Virus record (IMG/VR): IMGVR_UViG_3300021356_000075
Coordinates: 1 to 34,156 of that record
Strand: one strand, 5' to 3'
Length of the DNA stretch: 34,156 nucleotides
Origin: a virus
Part shown: in pieces, positions 2,059-8,841 of the stretch
How positions within the stretch are numbered: the first letter of the stretch is position 1
How the letters are laid out: each line of letters begins with the position of its first letter
Position numbers and translations under genes: made by a program
Notes under the pieces: model-generated
What the model saw: only the letters and a program-made list of their open reading frames with translations
Told to the model about the DNA's origin: nothing
Database searches by the model: none

Positions 2059-4248
2059 TCAATCAATCGCCCGAAATTTCTGTGTGGGCCTTCCACCGGC
2101 TGCACTCGGGGCCACTTCTTCGGCCTCAATGGACTTTTCTGTGAGGAGATGTTGGAGGACTTGCTGCCGATCTCGCGGGTTGAGTCGCCGCGTTTTCCGC
2201 GTCAATGTGGACAGCGTCATCCACCCACGATGGTCCTGTAATTTTCGCAGAACGTGCTGACAATCCTTGTGGAAGTCGCTCTGTGAGATGTGCCTGTCTG
2301 CTTGCCAGAGCATCTTTCTGGTGATCCAGTTGTTCAGCCGGATTGCCCTGTCTACATCGTCCAGCGTGATCTCTGGCCAGTCCTCGCCGCAGAATCTGGA
2401 ACAGGCCAGCAGCATGGCCAGCTTCGTGGTCTTCTCCGCCACTCTGGACCAGATTGCCGCCACCACCCTGTCCTCTGTCTTCCGCTTGTTGCTGATGCTC
2501 AGTGAGTGGTCTTTCAGCCGCTTGTATGCCCCCGGAGCCCAGTCGATCAGCTTTGGATGGCCTCCACCGCCGTCCAGATTGCCTCCATGAGTCTGGAGCT
2601 GTGCCCACGCCTTGGCCGCGTTTAGGATCGAATCTGGAAGCCTGTCGTCTGCCTCTGGGTCTTGGTAGTCCACGTAATCATCCACCTCGAACACAAGGAA
2701 GCGGCCAATCAGCCCGTTCTTCATGTTCTCCTCTGTGACTGCCTCCCAGAAGCCCTCGGGAACACTGGTCCCGTAGATCACGCAATGAGGATATGACAGC
2801 GTTTTGACCTTCTGCCGATCCCCGTAAGCGTCCATCGGGCAGAATGCTTTATTTGCCGAGCTGTAGATCGTCATTAGCCTGGCTGAGATCTGGGCCAGAT
2901 GTGGGGCTGATTTGTGCTGCATGGCATGGACGAGATGTGCGATTTCGTCAATCTGGAACAGCGTGCACCATTCCGCATCCATCTGACTGATGATGCCCGC
3001 ATGGCTTCCGATGGCCTCTGGGCCGATCCTGTTGGCCAGCCCACACTCTGCCAACACCCGCGTGTTGAGTTGCCTGCTGTGGTCCTTCCCGGCCCCGGAG
3101 GGAGCCAGCCCGAGAACGTAGAGATTGGTCCTTGCTCGCTTGCTGGTTTGCACCTTGCCCCCGGTCAGCGTGGACATCAGGGCAAGCGCTCCACCCAATG
3201 CCAATTCGGGGAGCGGATAGTGGGCTGTCCGCAAATTGAAGTCGATCAGATCCCCGATCAATCCGGGGATTTGCTGCAGATCATCAGGGAATCCCCCTGG
3301 ATCGGCCAGCTTCTCCGCTGGTGTGTCTGGTTTCGTGTCAGGGGCCACTTCTGCTGTGGTCCCGAGAATCCCCGAGAGATCCACACCGGGATCTGGCTGC
3401 ACGCTCACCACCTCGCTGGCCTTGTCAGCTGGTGGCGTTCCCCGGTCTTTGCCGTTCCGGACTGCCCGCTGCAGTTCCTCCTCCGGCAGTGGTGGGGAGT
3501 TGCCAGCATTCCACCCGCTCACCAGCTGGCTAACTGCTGCCATGCTCAGCCGCTCGCCCATGTCTCCCACGAGGGCCCAGAGATGCCCGGCAAGCTGGAA
3601 GGCTGCCGTCTGTCGCCCCCCCTCGGCCACATTGTCACAGTTGGCCACGTAATTGGCCGCCCGATCCCACAGGGAGCCACCAGAGCCCGCTGGGAGCCTC
3701 TGGGGTTGCGCCTGTGGTTTCGGCTGCTCCGCTGGCCACAATCGCCCACAGAGATCCCTGAGAGCTTCTGAACCGTCCCCGATGTCTGCCAAACCCTGCC
3801 AAACGTTACCAGTCATAGCCCAGAATCGGCCTTGATCGTAGATCTCAACTTGGCACTTCCCCGCCCCCATCTTTGCCACGCATCTGGAGCCCTCTGGCTT
3901 CCGGCCTCGCGTGATCAGCTTGAGCCCGGTCCCGCTGGGGGATATTTCGACATAGGCCACACCGCGGAAGGCCTCCACAATCTCCGCTGCCCAGTCTGCC
4001 AGCTGTCCATCTGCATCCAGACAGCCGTCTAGGTCAATTCCGCAGTAAGGGTAATTGATCGCCAGAGCCATCCCTGTGTAAAGATGCTCCTGCTTGCGTG
4101 CCATCTCGAAGGATGTCCACGCCGTTGGATCTGTGCTACTGCCCCTGCCTCCTCCGGTCCTGTAGGGGACTTTGGTCCCGTTCTCTGAAAGCCAGAGCAT
4201 CCAGATCTTCTTGTCCCGTAATTCTGCGGGGATGTCTTCCAGTGCCAT
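2059..4248 (-). CDS. Primase-polymerase fused to DUF3987-type ATPase (phage replicase)
   Basis: A 729-residue replication protein. The N-terminal 150 residues look like an archaeo-eukaryotic-type primase (PrimPol / NrS-1 polymerase class): GIDLDG at 70-75 gives the metal-binding Asp72 and Asp74, SPSGTGLK follows at 103-110, and VEIYDQGR at 134-141. After a helical linker comes a DUF3987-type ATPase with a Walker A-like APSGAGKD at 382-389 and Walker B FQIDE at 431-435. The C-terminus looks like a winged helix (LRKLQDHRGWMTLSTLTRKTR). Together these suggest primer synthesis coupled to helicase loading or unwinding. The ATG follows the shared GGAGTAGGCA leader. It lies next to the SF2 helicase gene and between two non-coding repeat blocks. 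Confidence 0.85.
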   Translation of the reverse strand: MALEDIPAELRDKKIWMLWLSENGTKVPYRTGGGRGSSTDPTAWTSFEMARKQEHLYTGMALAINYPYCGIDLDGCLDADGQLADWAAEIVEAFRGVAYVEISPSGTGLKLITRGRKPEGSRCVAKMGAGKCQVEIYDQGRFWAMTGNVWQGLADIGDGSEALRDLCGRLWPAEQPKPQAQPQRLPAGSGGSLWDRAANYVANCDNVAEGGRQTAAFQLAGHLWALVGDMGERLSMAAVSQLVSGWNAGNSPPLPEEELQRAVRNGKDRGTPPADKASEVVSVQPDPGVDLSGILGTTAEVAPDTKPDTPAEKLADPGGFPDDLQQIPGLIGDLIDFNLRTAHYPLPELALGGALALMSTLTGGKVQTSKRARTNLYVLGLAPSGAGKDHSRQLNTRVLAECGLANRIGPEAIGSHAGIISQMDAEWCTLFQIDEIAHLVHAMQHKSAPHLAQISARLMTIYSSANKAFCPMDAYGDRQKVKTLSYPHCVIYGTSVPEGFWEAVTEENMKNGLIGRFLVFEVDDYVDYQDPEADDRLPDSILNAAKAWAQLQTHGGNLDGGGGHPKLIDWAPGAYKRLKDHSLSISNKRKTEDRVVAAIWSRVAEKTTKLAMLLACSRFCGEDWPEITLDDVDRAIRLNNWITRKMLWQADRHISQSDFHKDCQHVLRKLQDHRGWMTLSTLTRKTRRLNPRDRQQVLQHLLTEKSIEAEEVAPSAAGGRPTQKFRAID

Positions 4249-4251
4249 CGG

Positions 4252-4261
4252 TGCCTACTCC
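4252..4261 (-). promoter_or_regulatory. Shared translation leader GGAGTAGGCA (replicase)
   Basis: GGAGTAGGCA ends three bases before the replicase ATG. The GGAG is the Shine-Dalgarno core. The TAGGCA that follows is not needed for ribosome binding, yet it is conserved before other replication-region starts. Confidence 0.7.
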
Positions 4262-4470
4262 GTGTCTTCGCTGACTTTGATTTGTGTCACCCAGAGGACG
4301 GTCCTCTCGGGCTGTTCGGTGATGTGCGTGGTCCTGCTGTGGACCACCATTGCTCGGACTTCTCCGCCCTCCATGTCCACCCGCAGAACGTCCTGCGGAG
4401 CCGCGTCTGTGCCAGTCTCTTGGCTTGTGGCGATCAGTTCCCGGCTGTGGTAGTCCCTGAATTCGATCAT
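4255..4470 (-). CDS. Hypothetical small protein (71 aa) following the tandem repeat array
   Basis: Short gene between the repeat array and the replicase. The product begins MIEFRDYHSRELIATSQETG and later has strand-like segments VLRVDMEGGEVRAMVV and TVLWVTQIKVSED; it looks like a small beta-rich fold. Only six bases separate it from the replicase, so the two are probably co-translated. Its ribosome site is poor (AGGGAAC eight or more bases upstream), unlike most genes here. Its upstream region is the 10-bp and 11-bp tandem array, so it is the first gene read after that array. No family is recognised. Confidence 0.65.
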   Translation of the reverse strand: MIEFRDYHSRELIATSQETGTDAAPQDVLRVDMEGGEVRAMVVHSRTTHITEQPERTVLWVTQIKVSEDTE

Positions 4471-4480
4471 TTGTCAGTTC

Positions 4481-4530
4481 CCTGTTGAACCCTGTTGAAC
4501 CGTGTTGAACCGTGTTGAACCGTGTTGAAC
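4481..4530. repeat. Five tandem 10-bp repeats
   Basis: Five head-to-tail copies of C(C/G)TGTTGAAC at 4481, 4491, 4501, 4511 and 4521, with variation only at the second base. The 10-bp period is not a multiple of three and the stretch is non-coding. It abuts a second array of different sequence. Confidence 0.95.
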
Positions 4531-4531
4531 C

Positions 4532-4577
4532 GGGATATCCCGGAGATATCCCGGAGATATCCCAAAGATATCCCGCC
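4532..4577. repeat. Four tandem 11-bp repeats
   Basis: GATATCCC occurs at 4534, 4545, 4556 and 4567, exactly 11 bp apart, with spacer GGA in the first two units and AAA in the third. The first copy is part of the palindrome GGGATATCCC. It follows the 10-bp array with no gap and ends just before the helicase stop codon. Roughly one helical turn per unit in both arrays suggests cooperative protein binding on one DNA face, as at iteron origins or multi-site operators. Confidence 0.9.
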
Positions 4578-4578
4578 C

Positions 4579-6291
4579 TCAAAACGGGACGCCATCGTCC
4601 CAGAATGCCTCTGCTGACTCGCTCTCGATCAGTTCTGTCGGTCGCGGATCGGTGAAGTCTGCATTGATCACCCGCCTCCACTTACCTTCCTTCTGGGTGT
4701 GGATACTGGCCGGAATCCTAACCGCGCCCCGGTCGATCATGTCCAGAGCATCTCGAACACTGGCAGGGCATTTGACCAGAGATCGCCGCTCCCACCACTT
4801 TTCGGCCTTGCTGCGTGCAAATCCCGTGTGGTTGAAACAGATCCACTCTTTCACCTCCTGCTGCTCCAGATTGCCATCCGCCCCGGGTCGGTGTATCCAA
4901 TACGTACAGCACAGCGTGGTGGGAGCGTCCGGGCTGTTTTTCTTTTCATGCTCCCTGTACCACACATCATCCACCAGCCACTCCACTGGCCCCTCCTCGC
5001 CCACCAGCTGGCTGGCAGTGTCTGCCGTTGCCTGGTGCCTGATGGCGTCTGGAATGTCTGCCCCGCATTCAGGGCAGAACGCAAACCGGGAAGGAATTCC
5101 GATCCCGCACTGCGGGCAGTCGATCTCCACTGGCCCTTGGCTCTCGCGTGGTGCTGTCTCTTCTTGGACCTGGCTCTGCGATCGTCCGCCAGTGTCCCGA
5201 CCATAGTCCGGAGAATCCAGTGATCCGTGGCGCTCGATGTTTCCGCCGAAGTCCAGAATGAGACAGTCCTGCTTCTCTGGTGAAGTTCGGAGCCCTCGCC
5301 CGACAATCTGGCAGAAGAGCCCCGGTGACATCGTGGCCCGGAGCACTGCCACGCAATCCACGCGGGGAGCATCGAAGCCCGTTGTGAGGACATCCACGTT
5401 CACCAGCCACCGCAATGACCCGCTGCGGAAGTCTCCCAGATGCTGCTTCCGCTCCTCCCTGTCTGTCTGGCCTGTGATCACCTCCACACGGTCTGTGACG
5501 ATGCCCCGGAGCGTCTCGGCTACGTGCTCAGCGTGATCCACACCGCTGCAGAACACGATGACGGACCGCCGATCGTGACAGCTGGCCACGATTTCCTGAC
5601 AAGCCGCATCCACGATGCTGGCCTGATCGAACGCCGCCTCCATCTGTCTAGCCACGAACTCACCGCCACGAATGGCCACGCTCGAGATATCAACCGGCCT
5701 CTCTGTTGGCTGATTCGTCAGCGGACAGAGAAACCCCTGCCCGATCAGATCCCCGGTGAACGCTTCGTAACAGATCAGGCCGAAAAGCCTGTCAGGGCCT
5801 GCCAGAAGTCCTTCCCCGGTTCGGTATGGCGTAGCAGTCAGCCCCACGCATCGCAGCTTCGGATTGACTTGGCTCAGATCTGTCAGGAATCGGTTGTACA
5901 TGGAGTCATCCATGTCATTGATCAAATGAGCCTCGTCAATGATGACCAGCTCACGCCGCCCGAATACCAGAGCCTTCCGGTGAACGCTCTGGATGCCCGC
6001 GCAGATCACATCTGACTCTGTGTCGTACCTGCGGAGCCCTGCCGAATACAACCCGGAGCTGATGCCCGGACAGAGCAGTTTGATCTTCTCGTGATTCTGC
6101 TCCAGCAGTTCCTTGCGATGTGCCAGGACCATCACTCTGGCCCCGTACTCCCTCGCCTGCTGGATCATCATGGCAATCACCAGAGACTTCCCCGCTCCTG
6201 TTGGCAGGACCACCAGAGGATTCTGGTCTGTGTCCCGCAATGCGTCCCAGATGGCCGCGTGTGATTCTTCTTGGTATTCCCTCGGCTTCAT
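4579..6291 (-). CDS. SF2 (DEAH-box) DNA helicase with zinc finger
   Basis: A 570-residue superfamily 2 helicase. Numbered from MKPREYQEE: motif I LPTGAGKS at 29-36, motif II DEAH at 119-122, motif III TAT at 152-154, and motif VI QIVGRGLRT at 328-336. A CPQC (392-395) and CPEC (406-409) zinc ribbon links to a C-terminal domain of unknown role. The protein ends ESAEAFWDDGVPF, very like the acidic Pro-Phe tip of bacterial SSB. This start is chosen over an ATG eleven codons upstream because the GGAGTAGGCA leader lies directly before it. Probable role: unwinding or remodelling at forks, with the adjacent replicase, DUF669 protein and RecA-like ATPase. Confidence 0.92.
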   Translation of the reverse strand: MKPREYQEESHAAIWDALRDTDQNPLVVLPTGAGKSLVIAMMIQQAREYGARVMVLAHRKELLEQNHEKIKLLCPGISSGLYSAGLRRYDTESDVICAGIQSVHRKALVFGRRELVIIDEAHLINDMDDSMYNRFLTDLSQVNPKLRCVGLTATPYRTGEGLLAGPDRLFGLICYEAFTGDLIGQGFLCPLTNQPTERPVDISSVAIRGGEFVARQMEAAFDQASIVDAACQEIVASCHDRRSVIVFCSGVDHAEHVAETLRGIVTDRVEVITGQTDREERKQHLGDFRSGSLRWLVNVDVLTTGFDAPRVDCVAVLRATMSPGLFCQIVGRGLRTSPEKQDCLILDFGGNIERHGSLDSPDYGRDTGGRSQSQVQEETAPRESQGPVEIDCPQCGIGIPSRFAFCPECGADIPDAIRHQATADTASQLVGEEGPVEWLVDDVWYREHEKKNSPDAPTTLCCTYWIHRPGADGNLEQQEVKEWICFNHTGFARSKAEKWWERRSLVKCPASVRDALDMIDRGAVRIPASIHTQKEGKWRRVINADFTDPRPTELIESESAEAFWDDGVPF

Positions 6292-6293
6292 GG

Positions 6294-6303
6294 TGCCTAC
6301 TCC
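6294..6303 (-). promoter_or_regulatory. Shared translation leader GGAGTAGGCA (helicase)
   Basis: Exact copy of the leader two bases before the helicase ATG. It decides the start of that gene. Confidence 0.75.
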
Positions 6304-6306
6304 ATG

Positions 6307-6336
6307 GAAAAGGCCCCCGGCCACAGCCGGAGGCCA
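6307..6336 (-). terminator. Intrinsic terminator between DUF669 and helicase genes
   Basis: On the minus strand GGCCTCCGGC pairs with GCCGGGGGCC around a TGTG loop, and four T follow. The T run is short, so it may terminate only partly or protect the upstream transcript. It could lower helicase expression relative to the single-strand-annealing genes. Confidence 0.6.
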
Positions 6337-6372
6337 TCAGATTGAAAAACAGTCCGCCACCAGTCCGCGGAC

Positions 6373-6837
6373 TCACCACGGACTGGCGGGCTTCTGCTGT
6401 GCAGGAGCAGCAAACGCCTCCGCGATCATATGACCGCCCGCTTCCGCTGGCCCGTAGCCCTTCACTTCGTTTTGGACCTGCCCCTTGTACTCCCGACATC
6501 CGATGCGGACTGTGAGGGTTCGCCCGTGCAGATCTGAGGAGTCTTTCGGGCTCAGCACGTTGACAGCCCTGCAGATGCTGGAGAGCGTCGCCTTTGCGAT
6601 TGCCACAGCCTGCTCGCTGGGGTTCTTCAGATTCAAATTATCGAACACCACCCGCCCAGCATGGGTGGGGCCTTCAATTTTGATCTGCAGCTTAAGGTAC
6701 TCGCCATCGCCTGCGTTGGTCGTTTTCTGTTCGCTGTGGACGATCACAGCCTGATAACTGCCTGCCGGCAGAGCCTCGTAGCCCTCGCCCGCTGGCTCCA
6801 CCTTGGTGGCGTCAAACCCTTCAAGATTCATCCCCAT
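6373..6837 (-). CDS. DUF669-like protein, probable single-strand DNA binding partner
   Basis: A 154-residue protein beginning MGMNLEGFDATKVEPAGEGY. LPAGSYQAVIVHSEQK followed by GDGEYLKLQIKI is the pattern of DUF669, a family found next to phage recombination ATPases and predicted to bind single-stranded DNA. Later segments are GRVVFDNLNLKNPSEQAVAI and TLTVRIGCREYKGQVQNEVK. The C-terminus is AAPAQQKPASPW, not an SSB-like acidic tip. The ATG is preceded by GGAGTAGGCA. It follows the ATPase gene after five bases, matching the common Sak4-DUF669 pairing. Expected role: coating replication or recombination intermediates. Confidence 0.8.
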   Translation of the reverse strand: MGMNLEGFDATKVEPAGEGYEALPAGSYQAVIVHSEQKTTNAGDGEYLKLQIKIEGPTHAGRVVFDNLNLKNPSEQAVAIAKATLSSICRAVNVLSPKDSSDLHGRTLTVRIGCREYKGQVQNEVKGYGPAEAGGHMIAEAFAAPAQQKPASPW

Positions 6838-6839
6838 GA

Positions 6840-6849
6840 TGCCTACTCC
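6840..6849 (-). promoter_or_regulatory. Shared translation leader GGAGTAGGCA (DUF669 gene)
   Basis: Exact copy two bases before the ATG of the DUF669 gene. It overlaps the end of the upstream ATPase cistron. Confidence 0.75.
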
Positions 6850-7613
6850 TTAACCTTGCTCGAACCATCAACAACAATGCCGGAGATATTCCCGGCCATA
6901 TGTTGAGCATACGCCGCCCAACTGAATCCGATCTCTGCTGGCATGGCCAGCCTGTTCTTTGCCAGTGCTGTGGCAGTCTCTGAGGTCTTCACGATTCGCT
7001 CAGTCCCACCCACTGCAATGGTCCGCTCCCGGCCAAATCCTTCGTCCTCCTTGCGTGTGTGGACCTTGTAGTGGCAGAACAGCAATTCGTCCACCCACTC
7101 CTGGAGTAAAGCCGCGCTGGCCTCATGGAGTGCTGGCGTGTACCTGTCATAGGAATCACCAGCAGGATCAGCAAACTTTGAGACTTTGGAATGGGCCAGA
7201 AGCACGATATTCAAGCCCCGCTCATTCCGCAGATAATCCAATCGCTTGAGGATCTGCTGCCACTCCCCCAGAGCCTGCTTGTACCCGTTGCCGTAGGGGA
7301 TATCGCCCACCGTAGCCTTGCCGTTCTTCTGCGCTACTCGCTGGTGAATGATCCGCTCCAGCCAATCGGCTGAGTCGATGGCCAGCGTGGTGAAGTCGTG
7401 TTCCTGCTGGGCCAGCCAGAGGAAAGCGTCTTCGATCTCGTCCATGGTGGTCAGGTGCTGGGTCTTGCTCGTGGCAATGTCAGCCAGCCCGTCCTCCAGA
7501 TCCATCATCAGCACGTTGGGGGCCTGAGCCGCCCACGTACTCTTACCGATCCCATGCACGCCGTATAACAAGCACCGGCGTGGCGTCTGCTTCTTCCCAG
7601 TCAAAATCTTCAT
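6843..7613 (-). CDS. Sak4-like / AAA_24 recombination ATPase
   Basis: A 256-residue RecA-fold ATPase. Walker A GVHGIGKST lies at 18-26, Walker B-like FTTLAIDSADWLE around 74-86, and a third strand motif in GLNIVLLAHSKV. This layout, with the conserved GDSYDRYTPAL region, matches the phage nucleotide-binding (AAA_24, Sak4-type) proteins that help single-strand annealing or strand exchange with an SSB partner. That partner is probably the DUF669 protein immediately downstream. The ATG is preceded by GAGGGTAGGC, a variant of the shared leader. The first 71 bases overlap the preceding gene in another frame. Confidence 0.88.
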   Translation of the reverse strand: MKILTGKKQTPRRCLLYGVHGIGKSTWAAQAPNVLMMDLEDGLADIATSKTQHLTTMDEIEDAFLWLAQQEHDFTTLAIDSADWLERIIHQRVAQKNGKATVGDIPYGNGYKQALGEWQQILKRLDYLRNERGLNIVLLAHSKVSKFADPAGDSYDRYTPALHEASAALLQEWVDELLFCHYKVHTRKEDEGFGRERTIAVGGTERIVKTSETATALAKNRLAMPAEIGFSWAAYAQHMAGNISGIVVDGSSKVKE

Positions 7614-7884
7614 GCCTACCCTCTTTCCGTGTTGGCTGTTCGGTTGTAATAACGCAAGTGGCCAGCCACTCCTCCCGCGTCATATCGTGTTGCTTAATGA
7701 GGAACTGATAGGCTTGGTGGCAATTCCTGTCTCGTTCCTCTTCCGGGAGATCTGCCAGGACATGCTCCCCCGGCTGGATCTCCTCCGCGTCTTCGTAGAG
7801 CAGAAACCCGGCTTCGTTTTGCCAGATCCCCATGCTGTTCGGACGCAAGCCCGGACCCTCTGCGTAAATGTGCTTGCGGGTCAT
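7543..7884 (-). CDS. Hypothetical protein (113 aa), 3' end inside the ATPase gene
   Basis: The start ATG overlaps the stop of the preceding gene as ATGA. The product begins MTRKHIYAEGPGLRPNSMG and has a hydrophobic WQNEAGFLLYEDAEEI, then an acidic helical segment (DLPEEERDRNCHQAYQFLIKQH), then MTREEWLATCVITTEQ. The final 24 residues are read from DNA that also encodes the ATPase N-terminus and Walker A motif, a 71-base overlap that is long by this genome's standards. No family is recognised. The N-terminal two-thirds look like a folded protein; the tail may be under dual constraint or dispensable. Confidence 0.65.
   Translation of the reverse strand: MTRKHIYAEGPGLRPNSMGIWQNEAGFLLYEDAEEIQPGEHVLADLPEEERDRNCHQAYQFLIKQHDMTREEWLATCVITTEQPTRKEGRHEDFDWEEADATPVLVIRRAWDR
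7613..7623 (-). promoter_or_regulatory. Variant shared leader GAGGGTAGGCA (ATPase gene)
   Basis: A degenerate copy of the leader. The core TAGGCA is intact, the SD part is GAGG, and its last A is the first base of the ATG. Confidence 0.6.
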
Positions 7885-8087
7885 TCTTGCGCCTCACACA
7901 CGCCTCCACATAAGCATCCAGTAGCGGCCATGTCGTACGCCTGCTCGGTGATCAGGTCTACAAATTTTTTCTGAGGCTCTGTTAATGCACCGCTGTTGCG
8001 TGCTGCCTTTAGGTCATCGTGGAACGCATCCAGCCGCTCCACCATCAGCCTGACCTCATGGATCACCTCGTCCCATTCTTCGCTCAT
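7881..8087 (-). CDS. Hypothetical small helical protein (68 aa)
   Basis: Begins MSEEWDEVIHEVRLMVERLD and continues FHDDLKAARNSGALTEPQKK, an amphipathic helical pair, ending with a cysteine-containing tail (TGCLCGGVCEAQE). Three cysteines within seven residues might bind a metal or form a disulfide; this is uncertain. It starts after an exact copy of the GGAGTAGGCA leader and ends in an ATGA overlap with the next gene. It is the first gene after the CsrA homologue and a hairpin-rich spacer. Function unknown. Confidence 0.75.
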   Translation of the reverse strand: MSEEWDEVIHEVRLMVERLDAFHDDLKAARNSGALTEPQKKFVDLITEQAYDMAATGCLCGGVCEAQE

Positions 8088-8089
8088 GT

Positions 8090-8099
8090 TGCCTACTCC
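8090..8099 (-). promoter_or_regulatory. Shared translation leader GGAGTAGGCA (68-aa gene)
   Basis: Exact copy two bases before the ATG. It follows an oligopyrimidine run on the transcribed strand. Confidence 0.75.
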
Positions 8100-8149
8100 A
8101 GAAAAGAAAAGAAAAGAAAAAGGAGGAGACCAGCCACCTGACTGGCTGG
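8096..8149 (-). terminator. Hairpin with oligo-U-rich tail after the CsrA gene
   Basis: On the minus strand CCAGCCA pairs with TGGCTGG around a six-base loop (8130-8149), followed by CTCCTCC and four TTTTC units (8101-8120). The T-rich run starts several bases after the stem, so termination is plausible but weaker than a classic site. It separates the CsrA-containing transcript from the replication genes. Confidence 0.4.
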
Positions 8150-8239
8150 CCCCCTCGGCTGTGGATTGGCAGGGTAAGGACTAACCCACCTCGGCCCTCA
8201 CAGCTTACCGCAGAACTGGCCCTCCATGGCCTGCGGAGA

Positions 8240-8452
8240 TCACCCGCCGCTGTGCCCGTCAGCCTCATGCTGGCCCGTGGCATTGCAGTCCTGTTTCATG
8301 TCGTCCCGGCAGATCCGGAGATCCTTGGGCGCTCTGATATTCACCTTTACCTTGTTACCCTTAACCCGGACGATGCTCACGGTGATGTCCTCACCAATCG
8401 CGAAGCAATCCCCCGGCTCTCGGGTAAACGTCAAACTTCCCTGCTCTCCCAT
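8240..8452 (-). CDS. csrA: Phage-encoded CsrA/RsmA-family RNA-binding regulator
   Basis: A 70-residue protein that lines up with CsrA over its full core. TREPGDCFAIGEDITVSIV matches the TRRVGETLMIGDDVTVTVL region, VKGNKVKVNIRAPKDL matches VKGNQVRIGVNAPKEV, and ICRDD matches VHREE, keeping the key RNA-binding arginine (Arg49 here, Arg44 in E. coli). The equivalent of Leu4 is Phe9. CsrA dimers bind GGA loops at ribosome sites and repress or stabilise mRNAs. The start is set by a GGAGG eight bases upstream. It sits between RusA and the replication genes, several of which carry a GGAG-containing common leader that could be its target. Confidence 0.85.
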   Translation of the reverse strand: MGEQGSLTFTREPGDCFAIGEDITVSIVRVKGNKVKVNIRAPKDLRICRDDMKQDCNATGQHEADGHSGG

Positions 8453-8454
8453 TG

Positions 8455-8841
8455 TCAGATCCTCCATATCCTGACCTCACACAATCCGCCGGCCACGATG
8501 ACCGGCTGTTGATTCTCGTCACATCTCCAGCGGATTCTAAGATCCTGAATCTGGCTGTCGTCTTCGTACACATCGGCATGGTCCAGGGCATCCAGCAGGG
8601 ACTTGAGCAGATTATCCAGGTCCCTCCGCCGTCTGTCTGGCCTTGTCACAATCACCTCCAGCCTGATCGGCCCGGCGATGAGCGGGAGCTCCAGCTGCTC
8701 CACATCGTGGAGGACCTGCTGCCGGTATGCTCGACCAGCCCGGCTGATCAGTGTGCTGTATCCTATGTTTCGCCAGTAGTGGTTCACCGATGGCGGGAAC
8801 GGGAGCCCGCTGATCGTCACGCTCGGGTCTGTCGCAGCCAT
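8455..8841 (-). CDS. rusA: RusA-type Holliday junction resolvase
   Basis: A 128-residue RusA homologue. GLPFPPSVNHYWR at 12-24 is the family's N-terminal signature. RPDRRRRDLDNLLK (67-80) holds the catalytic Asp74 and Asp76, and YEDDSQI (92-98) supplies the third acidic residue, probably Asp95. RusA dimers cut four-way DNA junctions symmetrically. In phages the enzyme resolves recombination or replication branches before packaging. The length is typical. The ATG lies 25 bases inside the preceding helix-turn-helix gene, and the stop precedes the CsrA start by two bases, so the three are coupled. Confidence 0.93.
   Translation of the reverse strand: MAATDPSVTISGLPFPPSVNHYWRNIGYSTLISRAGRAYRQQVLHDVEQLELPLIAGPIRLEVIVTRPDRRRRDLDNLLKSLLDALDHADVYEDDSQIQDLRIRWRCDENQQPVIVAGGLCEVRIWRI

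Follow-up and report, generated by a model that had tools for sequence, protein, structure and literature searches.

Why do several genes in the replication region of a phage start behind the same 10 bases, of which a Shine-Dalgarno core makes up only a part? The window, i.e., the whole stretch of 34,156 bases analyzed here, is a virus record in which all called genes lie on the minus strand, and the relatives of this virus are mostly found within genomes of Planctomycetota/PVC. In the order of transcription, the replication module consists of rusA, csrA, the 68-aa gene, the 113-aa gene, the ATPase, DUF669, the helicase, the 71-aa gene, and the primase/replicase. The genes that bear on the question, apart from csrA (see following), are:

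2059–4248, minus strand: DNA primase/replicase (PriCT_1, DUF3987; phrog_3022)
4255–4470, minus strand: 71-aa protein, found in the leader clade only, a predicted small β-barrel
4579–6291, minus strand: DNA helicase (ResIII/Helicase_C; phrog_16)
6373–6837, minus strand: DUF669 protein, similar to single-strand DNA binding proteins (phrog_6015)
6843–7613, minus strand: AAA_24 ATPase, a Sak4-like ssDNA annealing protein (phrog_124)
7543–7884, minus strand: 113-aa protein, found in the leader clade only, with C-terminal codons overlapping the ATPase start
7881–8087, minus strand: 68-aa gene, the first gene past the csrA terminator

The shared sequence is the 10-mer GGAGTAGGCA, which occurs four times in the window:

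4252–4261, minus strand: leader GGAGTAGGCA, 3 bases 5′ of the ATG of the primase/replicase; the TAG within it terminates the 71-aa gene
6294–6303, minus strand: leader GGAGTAGGCA, 2 bases 5′ of the ATG of the helicase
6840–6849, minus strand: leader GGAGTAGGCA, 2 bases 5′ of the ATG of the DUF669/SSB-like gene; the TAG within it terminates the ATPase gene
8090–8099, minus strand: leader GGAGTAGGCA, 2 bases 5′ of the ATG of the 68-aa gene

There is no further copy in the window beyond these four at gene starts. The chance expectation is 0.04, and none of 100 shuffles reached four copies; GGAGTAGGCANNATG is found three times for an expectation of 0.00. The four exact copies before start codons given in a preliminary description of this DNA are thus all recovered, at 2–3 bases from the ATG. 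Its assertion that TAGGCA goes beyond the needs of a Shine-Dalgarno sequence also holds: GGAG lies within 20 bases of 16 of the window's 29 remaining gene starts, yet TAGGC precedes none of the 29, and the element stays constant where neutral sites change (see following). The constant part of the leader is hence specific to the replication module. Homology between the copies is limited to the 10-mer plus 1–3 bases, which argues against a simple recent duplication of a longer block.

A fifth copy, at the ATPase, had also been proposed:

7613–7622, minus strand: weak variant AGGGTAGGCA, which extends into the start codon of the Sak4-like ATPase gene, inside the 113-aa frame

This one is weak. 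AGGGTAGGCA differs from GGAGTAGGCA by two mismatches, and the ATG begins with its final base, which gives it a register unlike that of the exact copies. The same bases code in the 113-aa frame (GGT AGG CAT GAA, for G-R-H-E), within a protein stretch E-G-R-H-E-D-F-D-W in which R-H is invariant in five of five homologs; GGAGAACGTAGGCATG is found at the ATPase start in L006, L007, and L010. Because R-H is invariant in the overlapping frame, dual coding can account for AGGGTAGGCA, and the ATPase copy is better left out of the count of independent leaders. The description of five replication-region genes sharing the leader must be reduced accordingly: four genes of the module have an exact leader, but one of them, the 68-aa gene (7881–8087), has no match in family scans, and its role in replication is therefore positional only.

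Conservation of the leader was followed in close records (L005–L009, with ATPases 95–98% identical) and in two distant records of the leader clade (L010 and L180, 60–62%). Among the close records, the leaders at DUF669, helicase, and replicase are kept wherever the gene start is present. The helicase leader is identical in L005–L010 and L180, and the replicase leader is identical in L180 at 64–65% protein identity (L010 stops short of the replicase). Between the window and L180, 87 of 209 fourfold-degenerate sites are identical in the helicase and 94 of 237 in the replicase (~40%), whereas the leader is identical at 10 of 10 positions before both genes, the start codons of which both change from ATG to GTG. 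The 20 bases upstream of the leader are identical at 4 positions for the replicase and at 14 for the helicase, the latter because a hairpin is kept there. Once GGAG is discounted, and at the replicase also the stop-codon TAG (leaving only GCA free), all nine free positions are kept. If these were neutral, one would expect this with a probability of about 0.42^6 × 0.40^3, roughly 4 in 10,000, for an argument that draws on one diverged pair (window and L180), to which L010 adds the helicase alone. This comparison is the chief evidence for selection on TAGGCA, and so for a constraint on the 10-mer beyond its Shine-Dalgarno part. The leader is not indispensable gene by gene, as it is lost or altered at DUF669 (absent in L010 and L180, with GGAGGCATGANNATG there instead) and at the 68-aa gene, the start of which has a GGAGGGTGTG-type sequence in L008 and L010. 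In L007, an unrelated ParB-like gene occupies the 68-aa slot after csrA, with variants noted as GGAGGGTAGGCAAG / GGAGGGTAGGCAAGATG in front.

GGAG is known to pair with the tail of 16S rRNA, and one may ask if the following bases extend this pairing. With a PVC anti-Shine-Dalgarno tail, energies are −5.9 kcal/mol for the leader, −6.4 kcal/mol for GGAG with other bases, and −18.4 kcal/mol for a full Shine-Dalgarno sequence. The tail is that of Victivallis, a PVC stand-in for that of the host, and a Planctomycetota locus has the identical GGATCACCTCCTTTCTAAG. With this stand-in, UAGGCA brings no gain (−5.9 versus −6.4 kcal/mol), and extended Shine-Dalgarno pairing was rejected. In the Planctomycetota locus, TGCCTAC (the complement of GTAGGCA) occurs once, at position 841, outside the 16S gene by our own reckoning, and 6-base complements of the GTAGGCA stretch occur elsewhere in it.

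The leader is not a widespread phage motif, judging from an exact scan of viral_contigs, in which records with multiple copies belong to the leader clade only. The scan for GGAGTAGGCANCATG returned 98 stretches. Among 97 scan loci (L192 on), 12 have at least two GGAGTAGG per strand, and 4 of these are leader-clade records; the other 8 have the full 10-mer in one copy only. In 79 loci, 58 matches of the GGAGTAGGCANCATG scan stand at an ORF of at least 50 aa, as expected for a ribosome-binding site beside an ATG. Other relatives have leaders of their own. In L076 (ATPase 56% identical), ACGAAAGYAA is present seven times for an expectation of 0.14, five times at 4–5 bases before an ORF start; a GG-type Shine-Dalgarno core is missing from it. 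Repeated start leaders thus seem to have arisen more than once in this phage group. A strict de novo search for leaders (163 sequences; 10-mers found at no fewer than three starts and having 60% or more of their occurrences there) retrieved GGAGTAGGCA in the window and L005–L009, a second 10-mer, AGATCCCGGT, also in the window, and other 10-mers in L016, L032, L076, L138, and L169. Earlier de novo searches were too noisy (the window leader had z = 0.8 in one), and inspection of L103, L104, L133, L074, and L032 for private leaders gave no clear result.

The preliminary description had suggested CsrA, whose gene it placed directly upstream in the same unit, as the ligand of the leader. The features concerned are:

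8240–8467, minus strand: csrA-like gene (PF02599, 48.9 bits against a curated cut-off of 27; likelier start at 8452)
8457–8477, minus strand: hairpin predicted at the ribosome-binding site of csrA, its loop containing CAGGA and ATGGA, a candidate autoregulatory CsrA site
8123–8156, minus strand: terminator-like hairpin of 14 pairs with a U-tract, between csrA and the first leader, with a counterpart in L010
6312–6335, minus strand: terminator-like hairpin with a U-tract, 8 bases before the helicase leader

The gene is real, and by its PF02599 score its product is a genuine member of the CsrA family. R7 is important in E. coli CsrA, and the window protein has E in its place. In the alignment with solved CsrA, it has R aligned with E. 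coli R44, a residue whose role in CsrA has been described (PMC7366521). The placement of leaders and csrA in one unit is less secure, since the hairpin at 8156–8123 intervenes. A hairpin with a U-tract is also seen by eye after csrA in L007, though the scan did not list one there. The same scan finds the helicase hairpin in L007, L010, and L180, with the stem kept in all and the loop changed in L010 and L180. Given the hairpins before the 68-aa and helicase leaders, the genes behind them would need read-through or transcripts of their own.

A CsrA regulon, in which the phage protein would bind the GGA of the leaders and repress the replication genes in common, would draw on this neighborhood: a genuine CsrA-family gene with R44 lies just upstream of the leaders, and in most relatives whose sequence extends far enough csrA is found close to the ATPase, as if it mattered to the replication module. 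The ANGGA of three exact leaders and the pair of GGA in the predicted loop at the start of csrA also speak for it. Distribution, folding, and conservation all go against it as the main explanation. Among 19 records with ATPases 53–58% identical, csrA lies 140–1800 bases upstream of the ATPase (in one case 5.2 kb) in 14, with a score above the curated cut-off in 13 of them; of the five records without csrA, four have less than 620 bases of upstream sequence. GGAGTAGGCA is absent from the csrA strand in all 19, and hence in 14 of 14 csrA-bearing records (on the opposite strand, three records show one match each). Hence, csrA is an older and broader feature than the leader, and a comparison of their co-occurrence across relatives, which had been proposed as a check, shows csrA to be far more widespread. 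GGAGTAGGCA is also absent from four csrA-bearing terminase relatives (G018, G020, G035, and G040), although these have no DUF669 match and their replication module may differ, which weakens the distribution argument. By our reading, csrA is present in all four leader-bearing records that reach its place (the window, L007, L010, and partly L008). In L007 the CsrA is 34% identical to that of the window while the leaders at the replication genes are unchanged. Concerning the sites themselves, ANGGA had been noted before three leaders. It is indeed found in three of the four exact copies, but the 68-aa copy has CTGGA, the enrichment is not significant (3/4 versus 6/21 elsewhere, p = 0.12), and ANGGA is lost at the L180 replicase (CAGGA). 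In minimum-energy folds, the leader GGA lies outside a hairpin loop in four of four exact copies. UAGGCA is not known to belong to the CsrA consensus, and E at the R7 position argues in the same direction. The weak ATPase start does have a GGA at −15 in a predicted loop, one which L008 lacks. Within the module, it is the hairpin at the ribosome-binding site of csrA itself, with two GGA in the predicted loop, rather than any leader, that most resembles a CsrA site; its ATGGA overlaps the Shine-Dalgarno sequence that would serve the likelier start, 8452, and its bases are identical in L010, but double as RusA codons. We read csrA as probably controlling itself and having no link to the repeated leader, and CsrA as the leader's ligand appears improbable.

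If the reader is not CsrA, it could be a dedicated trans factor of the phage, protein or small RNA, that recognizes UAGGCA in the manner of T4 RegA and RegB. The constancy of UAGGCA exceeds what a passive spacer would need, the T4 proteins offer precedents for action at many early starts (PMC3014915), and the leader clade has candidates: the 71-aa, 113-aa, and 68-aa proteins are found in 6/7, 6/7, and 3/7 leader-clade records versus 0/74 other ATPase relatives, counts to be read knowing that tblastn easily misses small fast-evolving proteins outside the clade. The 71-aa protein is confidently predicted (pLDDT 85.8) with five strands, which we read as a small β-barrel; the 113-aa model is poor (pLDDT 44.5). 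Against this, Foldseek found no PDB or viral match to the 71-aa model with E below 0.001, and its best VIA-align match, HisI, has Z = 5.5, with ribosomal bL25/TL5-type β-barrels at Z of about 4, values too weak to mean anything, so that naming the protein by its fold was abandoned. As for an RNA reader, the plus strand of the window contains no complement of the leader with 0–1 mismatches, hence no obvious antisense RNA in the window. Such a factor is a possibility that we consider unlikely. More doubtful still is the broader picture in which each subclade would mark the genes of its replication module with a leader peculiar to it (GGAGTAGGCA in the window, the Shine-Dalgarno-less ACGAAAGYAA in L076). 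A phage factor limited to the clade would be the reader, with the predicted 71-aa β-barrel as the first candidate, and the conserved csrA upstream would be an autoregulated switch. The repeat might, alternatively, have no regulatory role and be a linker at gene junctions, a homologous crossover point for gene swapping. The leader does lie exactly at gene borders, and in L007 the variant GGAGGGTAGGCAAG precedes an unrelated ParB-like gene in the 68-aa slot. However, homologous recombination would have little to act on in a 10-base repeat, ATPase, DUF669, helicase, and replicase follow one another in a conserved, unshuffled order, and a linker would not need a fixed distance to the start codon, all of which makes this the most improbable of the alternatives.

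We thus favor, with a probability of about two in three, the reading of GGAGTAGGCA as a clade-private start-associated leader, i.e., a putative cis-acting translation-initiation element before replication-region genes that is not primarily a CsrA site. The GGAG of the leader would pair with the 16S tail, and UAGGCA, held by selection, would fill the 8–9 bases between the Shine-Dalgarno sequence and the start codon, where it would most likely set a common initiation rate or a common control at the ribosome. The use of UAG as the stop codon of the preceding gene in two places would fit stop-restart coupling, and the genes of the two leaders directly behind terminator-like hairpins would be expressed by read-through or from separate transcripts. 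UAGGCA may be read by the ribosome alone or by a further phage factor. A coordinated translational regulon of the leader-bearing genes is plausible on these grounds. The locus raises the question of what besides the ribosome reads the bases between Shine-Dalgarno sequence and start codon.

The literature on phage csrA and on the start-associated sequences (SAS) of mycobacteriophages contains no paper on the GGAGTAGGCA leader that we could find, and several known systems can be compared with it. The leader resembles CsrA/RsmA sites in that GGA overlaps the Shine-Dalgarno sequence and a csrA gene is nearby, and differs from them by the lack of hairpin presentation, the nonconserved ANGGA, the extra constant UAGGCA, and a distribution that does not track csrA. 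Phage-borne csrA was found in 30 of 2517 phages in a 2020 survey, where its role was not known (PMC7366521); most of the sampled relatives whose sequence extends far enough have csrA close to their replication module, which gives it a specific context. With T4 RegA and RegB, the leader would share phage-wide control at many early translation starts. RegB recognizes GGAG in Shine-Dalgarno sequences with a 3′ context (consensus GGAGRAYARAA), and RegA sites are AU-rich and not conserved (PMC3014915). The RegB context is A-rich, whereas the leader has UAGGCA after GGAG and does not match the RegB consensus.

The nearest parallel is found in the SAS (GGGATAGGAGCCC) that cluster K mycobacteriophages carry, described in 2011 with its function unproven (PMC3203893), and for which a 2025 survey still asks for functional verification (PMC12699233). 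About half of the SAS sites have 17-bp inverted repeats, or ESAS (PMC3203893, PMC12699233); no such repeat was noticed at the leaders. Sequence sets the two apart, as GGAGTAGGCA plus flanks, read directly, is not within two mismatches of GGGATAGGAGCCC. The order is also different, the leader having the Shine-Dalgarno sequence first and the constant tail after it. SAS are present in 11–19 copies versus 4 for the leader, two of which lie directly behind terminator-like hairpins, unlike SAS, and the leader virus is not a mycobacteriophage, its relatives lying mostly in Planctomycetota/PVC genomes. Nevertheless, both elements are short and asymmetric, contain a Shine-Dalgarno core, and lie just upstream of start codons, at a distance of a few bases (PMC3203893). 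Both are confined to the nonstructural region in one orientation (four of four leaders are on the minus strand, none among structural genes). Both have conserved bases without 16S pairing, TAGGCA being unpaired with the PVC tail and yet kept in L180. In both, the stop codon of the previous gene sometimes lies inside the element, and abundance differs between subclades. In conclusion, and by analogy, the leader would work like SAS without being a member of that family. An SAS-like arrangement in an unrelated phage group, with another sequence and four copies, makes the question of the reader now testable.

The phage csrA gene and the Sak4-like ATPase/SSB/helicase/primase module form a conserved synteny: csrA lies upstream of the module in 14 (L065, L067, L068, L070-L074, and L076-L081) of the 19 related virus records whose ATPases are 53-58% identical. 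In one of these, L076, there is another repeated start leader, ACGAAAGYAA (at 6589, 13554, 13918, 14120, and 14518), which is devoid of a GG-type Shine-Dalgarno core.

In the window, the starts of the 68-aa and helicase genes are each directly preceded by a terminator-like hairpin, and the helicase hairpin has a conserved stem and a differing loop in L010 and L180.

Terminator-like hairpins in the window and in two more distant relatives
6312-6335, window
8123-8156, window
3175-3208, L010
4988-5009, L010
1263-1284, L180

The start of the ATPase gene is overlapped over ~70 bases by the 113-aa gene (7543-7613 in the window; 2253-2323 in the close relative L007). Comparison of homologues shows that the C-terminal sequence of the 113-aa protein encoded in this overlap is almost invariant, while the remainder diverges.

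Two tandem arrays at 4483-4575 of the window, with 5 copies of TGTTGAACCG and 4.3 copies of CCGGAGATATC, are located between the helicase stop and the start of the 71-aa gene. No such arrays are found at the corresponding site in L005-L009 and L180. The arrays are iteron-like, and this is possibly a replication origin.

At the csrA ribosome-binding site (window 8457-8477), a hairpin is predicted whose loop contains two GGA motifs, making it a candidate site for CsrA autoregulation in a phage.
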